A stretch of DNA of 56,422 nt from Cyclobacteriaceae bacterium (GTDB taxonomy: Bacteria; Bacteroidota; Bacteroidia; Cytophagales; Cyclobacteriaceae): positions 1 to 56,422 of the forward strand of contig JAHCHY010000024.1 in the NCBI GenBank assembly GCA_026129485.1, given 5' to 3'. Below, one piece after another: positions 14,149 through 14,943 of this stretch; within the stretch, counting starts at the first letter, position 1, and every line of letters begins with the position of its first letter. The notes under the pieces are model-generated. The model did no database searches. It was not told where the DNA came from and saw only the letters and a list, made by a program, of their open reading frames with translations. The position numbers were made by a program, and so were the translations under genes.

Positions 14149-14943
14149 ATGCGTCAATACCTCTAATTACTGCATGATATATTAGACAATGGAGCAGTTA
14201 AAACAGACCGTACCGGCACCGGAACACGATCTGTGTTTGGCCGCCAGCTTCGTTTTAACCTGGCTGAAGGATTTCCATTGGTTACTACCAAAAAATTGCA
14301 TCTGCGTTCGATTATTTATGAGCTGCTTTGGTTTTTAAATGGCGATACCAACATCAAATACCTGAAAGACAACGGGGTAACTATTTGGGATGAATGGGCG
14401 GATGAAAACGGTGATCTTGGCCCGGTGTACGGAAGCCAGTGGCGAAGCTGGCCGGCACCGGATGGCCGCCATATCGACCAGGTAACACAGGTGCTCAATC
14501 AAATCAGGCAAAAGCCGGATTCGCGCAGGCATATTGTTTCAGCCTGGAACCCGGCCGAGGTAGATCAAATGGCGCTTCCGCCATGCCATGCATTGTTCCA
14601 GTTTTATGTAGCTGAGGGTAAATTGTCGTGCCAGCTTTACCAGCGCAGCGCTGATTATTTTTTAGGAGTTCCGTTTAATATAGCCAGCTATGCATTGTTA
14701 ACCCACATGTTTGCGCAGCAAACCGACCTGGAGCCCGGTGAGTTTGTGTGGACGGGGGGCGATGTGCATTTGTATTCGAATCATCTGGAGCAGGCCAGGC
14801 TTCAGCTAACCCGCCAGCCGTACCCGTTGCCTCAACTCAATATTCGCAGAAAGCCTGCCTCGCTTTTTGAATATCAGTTTGAAGACTTTGAGATTGTGAA
14901 TTACCAGGCGCATCCTTCTATCAAAGCGCCCATTGCGGTGTGA
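14149..14943 (+). CDS. thyA: Thymidylate synthase with in-frame TAA at codon 6
   Basis: From the ATG at 14149 there are 264 codons, exactly the E. coli ThyA length, reading [18 protein letters not shown]... then DRTGTGT and on without interruption. ThyA converts dUMP to dTMP using methylene-THF. Catalytic Cys146 is present in PPCHALFQ, as are [14 protein letters not shown] and HLYSNH. Codon 6 (14164-14166) is TAA where E. coli has Glu (MKQYLELM), a single G-to-T change from GAA. The next standard in-frame start is GTG at 14233 (236 residues), which would remove the phosphate-binding Arg of DRTGTGT and should be inactive. CTG at codon 8 would be a non-standard rescue. It may be a fresh pseudogene, a sequencing error, or recoded. 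Confidence 0.85.

Follow-up and report, generated by a model that had tools for sequence, protein, structure and literature searches.

The only thyA gene found in the genome of this Cyclobacteriaceae bacterium is interrupted at its sixth codon by an in-frame TAA, and this stop is probably a very young change, private to the genome, that arose either as a recent nonsense mutation or as a wrong base in the consensus sequence. We favor this reading because none of the relatives compared carries the stop, the rest of the gene looks healthy, and no recoding machinery was seen. As to its two branches, a consensus error is a substantial prospect although short of an even chance, and a real nonsense allele, borne with the help of thymidine salvage or trace activity, is a smaller one that we still take seriously.

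An Interrupted but Otherwise Complete Frame

The window, meaning the whole stretch of DNA analyzed, is contig C17 in its entirety (56,422 bases) and belongs to a genome of 4.08 Mb in 40 contigs that is 98% complete. The features that the argument draws on are the following.

14149 to 14943, forward strand: thyA (thymidylate synthase) frame, broken at codon 6, with 264 codons and a final stop; from the reading frame, Pfam, and a solved-structure match.
14164 to 14166, forward strand: in-frame TAA at codon 6, seen in no other ThyA locus of the comparison; from the frame and the relatives.
14170 to 14172, forward strand: CTG at codon 8, a near-cognate start directly after the TAA and a hypothetical restart site; from the sequence.
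14233 to 14235, forward strand: GTG at codon 29, the first standard in-frame start 3′ of the TAA, with a product that would lack Arg21; from the frame.
14584 to 14586, forward strand: TGC for Cys146, which we take to be the catalytic residue; from the sequence and alignment.
14124 to 14134, forward strand: GCGTAATTGCA before the thyA start, with CGTAATTGCA kept in six of seven sister-clade relatives; a possible promoter element, from the sequence.

From the ATG at 14149 the first nine codons read ATG CGT CAA TAC CTC TAA TTA CTG CAT. Translation gives MRQYL and the TAA, after which 258 codons of a ThyA normal in other respects run open from TTA CTG CAT GAT ATA TTA through a downstream DRTGTGT to a normal stop at 14941–14943. 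The preliminary description of this DNA had reported just such a frame, a full 264-codon ThyA with its Cys146 codon in place behind MRQYL and the TAA, and re-reading the sequence confirmed all of it. The PF00303 profile matches the gene with an E-value of 4.6e-127, above the family cutoff and with one TAA inside, and is covered from position 6 to 266 of 266, which corresponds to codon 7 through the end. All 16 active-site residues checked are intact and lie downstream of the TAA (Cys146, Arg21/126/127/166, Asn177, His207/Tyr209, and others, for which we assume the E. coli roles and numbering). The best solved chains are 1qqq and 1aob, both presumably E. coli ThyA; the gene described here has the same length and, in contrast to them, a TAA at codon 6. 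What is absent is an uninterrupted frame from a standard start. No in-frame ATG, GTG, or TTG occurs between the TAA and Asp20, and the near-cognate starts after the TAA are the CTG at codon 8 and an ATA at codon 11. The stop lies within the first eight of the 264 codons, which make up roughly 3% of the gene. In the gap that separates thyA from its upstream neighbor (14049–14134), an inverted repeat (AGGCGCA/TGCGCCT), a run of T, and then GCGTAATTGCA can be made out by eye, and the arrangement could represent a terminator with the promoter of thyA after it; the reading of GCGTAATTGCA and CGTAATTGCA as a possible promoter element is our assumption from Bacteroidota promoters.

Codon 6 among Relatives

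The comparison within the genus used 30 full-length sequences including our own, the best 30 of the genus search. Our thyA falls in a clade of eight (tree support 100/99), whose other seven members have ACC, GAT, GAT, ACT, GAT, AAT, and GGT at codon 6; none of these is a stop, and all seven are two or three changes away from TAA. Residue 6 across the 29 genus relatives is D in 21, T in three, S in two, and N, E, and G in one each, and L046 (GAA) is the only relative among them that stands one change from TAA. Nine further genus loci (GAT, GAT, GAC, CAG, GCC, GAC, GAC, GAC, and GAT) include none at that distance, and eight loci from the same order have no stop at codon 6, with GAA in L028. A single G-to-T change had been proposed to explain the stop, which holds only against the Glu codon of E. 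coli ThyA, presumably GAA; measured against the sister clade, two or three changes are needed. Given the distance of all seven sister-clade codons from TAA, either several changes at once or a step through some unseen codon has to be invoked, and because an error and a mutation would both start from that same unseen codon, codon distance does not separate the two. Nor does it follow, as had been suggested, that GAA or GAT in relatives would make the TAA an assembly error, since GAT in relatives shows that TAA is derived in this lineage.

Wider searches were scored by whether the frame stays open to residue 1. Genus and order together gave 47 loci (39 from the genus, our own included, and eight from the order), of which 46 were scored and 45 are open; the exception is our thyA, which is closed before Asp20. 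The frame is likewise open in 79 of 79 scored ThyA loci from the genome_contigs set (one of 80 went unscored) and in all 24 that the order search contributed, so that the stop occurs in none of these 103 further cellular loci. Viral ThyA loci are open in 63 of 64 scored cases, the remaining one (L322) being short and beginning at a contig edge, with 16 unscored. Among 213 scored ThyA loci, only in our gene does a stop close the frame ahead of residue 1. The order search matched 385 of 391 genomes, and among the matches listed only our gene has an open frame shorter than 264 codons. No same-species sequence was found among the best 80 loci from each of the genome_contigs and viral_contigs sets, where protein identity reaches 78% and 74%, respectively; both sets may leave out records very near the source genome. 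The best genome_contigs matches that carry a name are mixed, with Paenibacillus at the top.

The genus search also returned five partial ThyA matches. A second interrupted thyA in the genus occurs in G018 (C134:15230–15976), with one TGA and one TAG later in the gene and its first codons intact; it is possibly an assembly error in a genome that is 84% complete. In another genome, G007, thyA is matched twice on one contig at a distance of about 19 kb (C13:141367 and C13:160854), and one of these matches covers query residues 1–167 only.

Selection on the Rest of the Gene

Over codons 7–264, dN between our thyA and the seven sister-clade members is 0.051–0.059, similar to the 0.013–0.064 found among sister-clade pairs, and dS is 2.1–2.6 in three of our pairs and saturated to the point of not being computable in four. 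Among the 30 genus sequences, three states are private to our ThyA (the stop at 6 and residues 9 and 112), all at sites that also vary among the others; each of the seven sister-clade members shows between one and four such states. Codons 7–28 differ from those of G051 at two residues, and the end branch leading to our gene is 0.44 changes per column in the tree. Judged by these comparisons, the rest of the gene shows ordinary purifying selection, which probably acted along nearly all of its own branch.

Quality of the Assembly

The window was set against syntenic stretches from five relatives. A wider sample took in 850 ORFs from relatives, of which 214 matched stretches of our genome; requiring 65% identity and 70% coverage left 51 distinct genes of our own, of which the window holds 29 and C38 the other 22, with none on the stretches of C1 and C39. 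This sample judges only genes above these thresholds, and within it thyA alone has a stop inside the gene. Stops were also absent from 54 of 54 ABC_tran matches in the genome and from 43 of 43 matches to the TonB-type Plug domain. Many of the latter sit in frames some 1000 codons long, a feature typical of Bacteroidota, the phylum to which they suggest the genome probably belongs. The samples taken gave no sign of an assembly poor in general or of a decaying genome, and because the 51-gene, ABC_tran, and Plug samples are clean, an error-ridden or decaying genome is unlikely. The samples bound the error rate loosely and are compatible with a single base error.

A region on C38 (58323–59099) flagged with three stops is not counted as a lesion, as its frame is open from 58449 to 59099 and the stops precede it, in part over the end of the gene before it, which is of ABC transporter type and itself among the ABC_tran matches. 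The G023 match at 13140–14120 passes the stop of the gene at 13149–14048, and in this match and the G051 match at 55056–55208 the stop lies at or beyond the gene end or in a short piece. Other stop-bearing syntenic matches come from ORFs of relatives that, by position and strand, mostly run antisense to window genes or in another frame. One of the ABC_tran matches (G000:C14:81989–82225) covers profile positions 2–79 only in an open frame of 105 codons, possibly as a truncated gene or at a contig end.

Supply of dTMP

The genome contains one PF00303 match, and the profile search found no second ThyA in it. A profile search for ThyX (PF02511) gave no match in the genome either; as a control, the same profile matched in six of 14 named genomes. 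Within the genus, ThyX is present in one of 62 genomes, and the ThyA of the window, used as the query, has matches in 57 of 62. With no ThyX found in the genome, rescue by this enzyme is not possible on paper, and we reject it as the substitute for ThyA. The options that had been listed for the TAA (sequencing error, nonsense mutation, CTG initiation, and read-through) were sensible ones; the accompanying proposal that a mutation was tolerated because ThyX exists elsewhere is not supported. Thymidine salvage, on the other hand, is possible on paper, since the domains of a thymidine kinase (C10) and a NupC-type nucleoside transporter (Nucleos_tra2_C, C27) are both present without an internal stop. 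A DHFR domain on C12 also has none. Should the TAA be present in the living cell, ThyA output would drop to near zero, and the cell would then live on thymidine taken up by the NupC-type transporter and phosphorylated by thymidine kinase. A trace of ThyA restarted at the CTG of codon 8 might help.

The sole ThyX carrier among the 62 genus genomes, G066 (L159), also has a ThyA (L035) without an internal stop; this genome is 94% complete with 5% contamination. The genus profile and homology searches gave neither a ThyA nor a ThyX match in G068 and G050, which are 98% and 100% complete, respectively. Gaps in the assemblies (250 and 960 contigs) may account for these absences, or the genes may truly be lost.

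Alternative Readings of the Stop

The position of the stop counts against a very young change. By our estimate, random errors or null mutations would hit the first eight of 264 codons in about 3% of cases, whereas a tolerated lesion is to be expected near the 5′ end. A bypass of the stop is also favored by the failure of the searches to find another synthase. This is where a restart comes in, in which ribosomes ending at the TAA begin again at the CTG of codon 8 (14170) and make a 257-residue ThyA without the first seven residues. The CTG begins three bases after the TAA, placing the lesion where a restart could spare the enzyme, and the 16 active-site residues (their roles as assumed above) all lie downstream and intact. 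Codon 8 is Leu throughout the sister clade and ATG in 16 of the 28 genus loci read, and two of the three private states, 6 and 9, are at this N-terminal end. Restart after early nonsense codons is known from lacI, and the present case shares with it an early stop and a possible non-AUG restart downstream; the difference is that here the restart is hypothetical and CTG a weak start. Finding a CTG means little alone, however, since this codon encodes more of the Leu residues in the 30 window genes (433 of 1179) than any other. In Flavobacterium johnsoniae, A at −3, −6, −12, and −13 helps initiation, according to passages of PMC6847099. Only −13 is A before the CTG (T, T, T, and A at these four positions). 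The ordinary ATG at 14149 also has A only at −13 (G, T, T, and A), so that initiation context does not discriminate; the CTG is no worse, A at −3 is not marked in the window genes (eight of 30), and a poor context is a weak argument against a restart. It also counts against a restart that CUG makes up 0.024% of bacterial start codons with an output 0.86% of that of AUG, figures that passages of PMC11497404 give from earlier work, and that a ThyA so shortened is without precedent among the 213 scored loci. With the stop in the first 3% of the gene, a leaky restart keeps a place among the explanations, as an unlikely one. Its strongest form, in which the TAA is fixed in the species and the sole thymidylate synthase comes from the CTG after a five-codon leader peptide, we consider improbable. 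Literature searches on a thyA premature stop with reinitiation and on N-terminal truncation of ThyA gave nothing on point by title among the matches listed.

Low-level decoding of UAA as an amino acid would yield a full-length ThyA from a frame that is otherwise complete, and because residue 6 is variable among the 29 relatives, many inserted residues should be tolerated. The 33 tRNA genes found include no UUA anticodon and thus no ochre suppressor, in a list that is incomplete (150 of 226 candidates scored, with tRNA-Ile GAT and tRNA-Ala TGC unseen), and TAA is not reassigned, as it terminates 16 of the 30 window genes; neither set gives a sign of an altered code or suppressor tRNA. The stop stands in the context UAA-U, which is efficient in E. 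coli. RNA folding gave no structure around the thyA start and stop beyond that of shuffles (z 0.01), and the window has no Rfam match at the gathering score. A recoded stop conserved in relatives is not what we see, the TAA being private to our thyA. Read-through is very unlikely in our estimation, and nothing supports the TAA as an evolved recoding signal. Hardly credible at all is a true start at GTG 14233 with the upstream part dispensable. This GTG is the standard in-frame start nearest downstream of the TAA, but its product loses Arg21 and the conserved DRTGTGT loop, and none of the favored upstream positions is A. Codons 7–28 have stayed conserved, and the other scored genus loci are open to residue 1; given this conservation, the GTG product has not been the working enzyme so far. 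The preliminary description had likewise predicted an inactive product from this start, and that judgment stands. We are left with a very young change as the preferred reading. Against its base-error branch counts the clean sampled assembly, in which thyA is the sole stop-bearing gene of 51, and against a null allele that the cell apparently cannot do without the gene when it receives no thymidine.

Implications

A comparable situation is that of thymidine-auxotrophic, non-typeable Haemophilus influenzae with loss-of-function thyA variants (PMC5476696), where thyA likewise falls short of a full enzyme and salvage genes are present. The lesion reported here differs in being known from one assembled genome alone, with an error possible. 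If it is an error, it serves as a reminder that a single-copy essential gene with a lone stop in an assembled genome needs checking against the reads before it is called a pseudogene. If the sole synthase does come from a restart at codon 8, it would be a natural ThyA without the first seven residues and an essential gene held at low output by a mini-ORF. More generally, if the stop is real, this species would either be a natural thymidine auxotroph tied to thymidine in its environment or depend on a very weak start for an essential enzyme.
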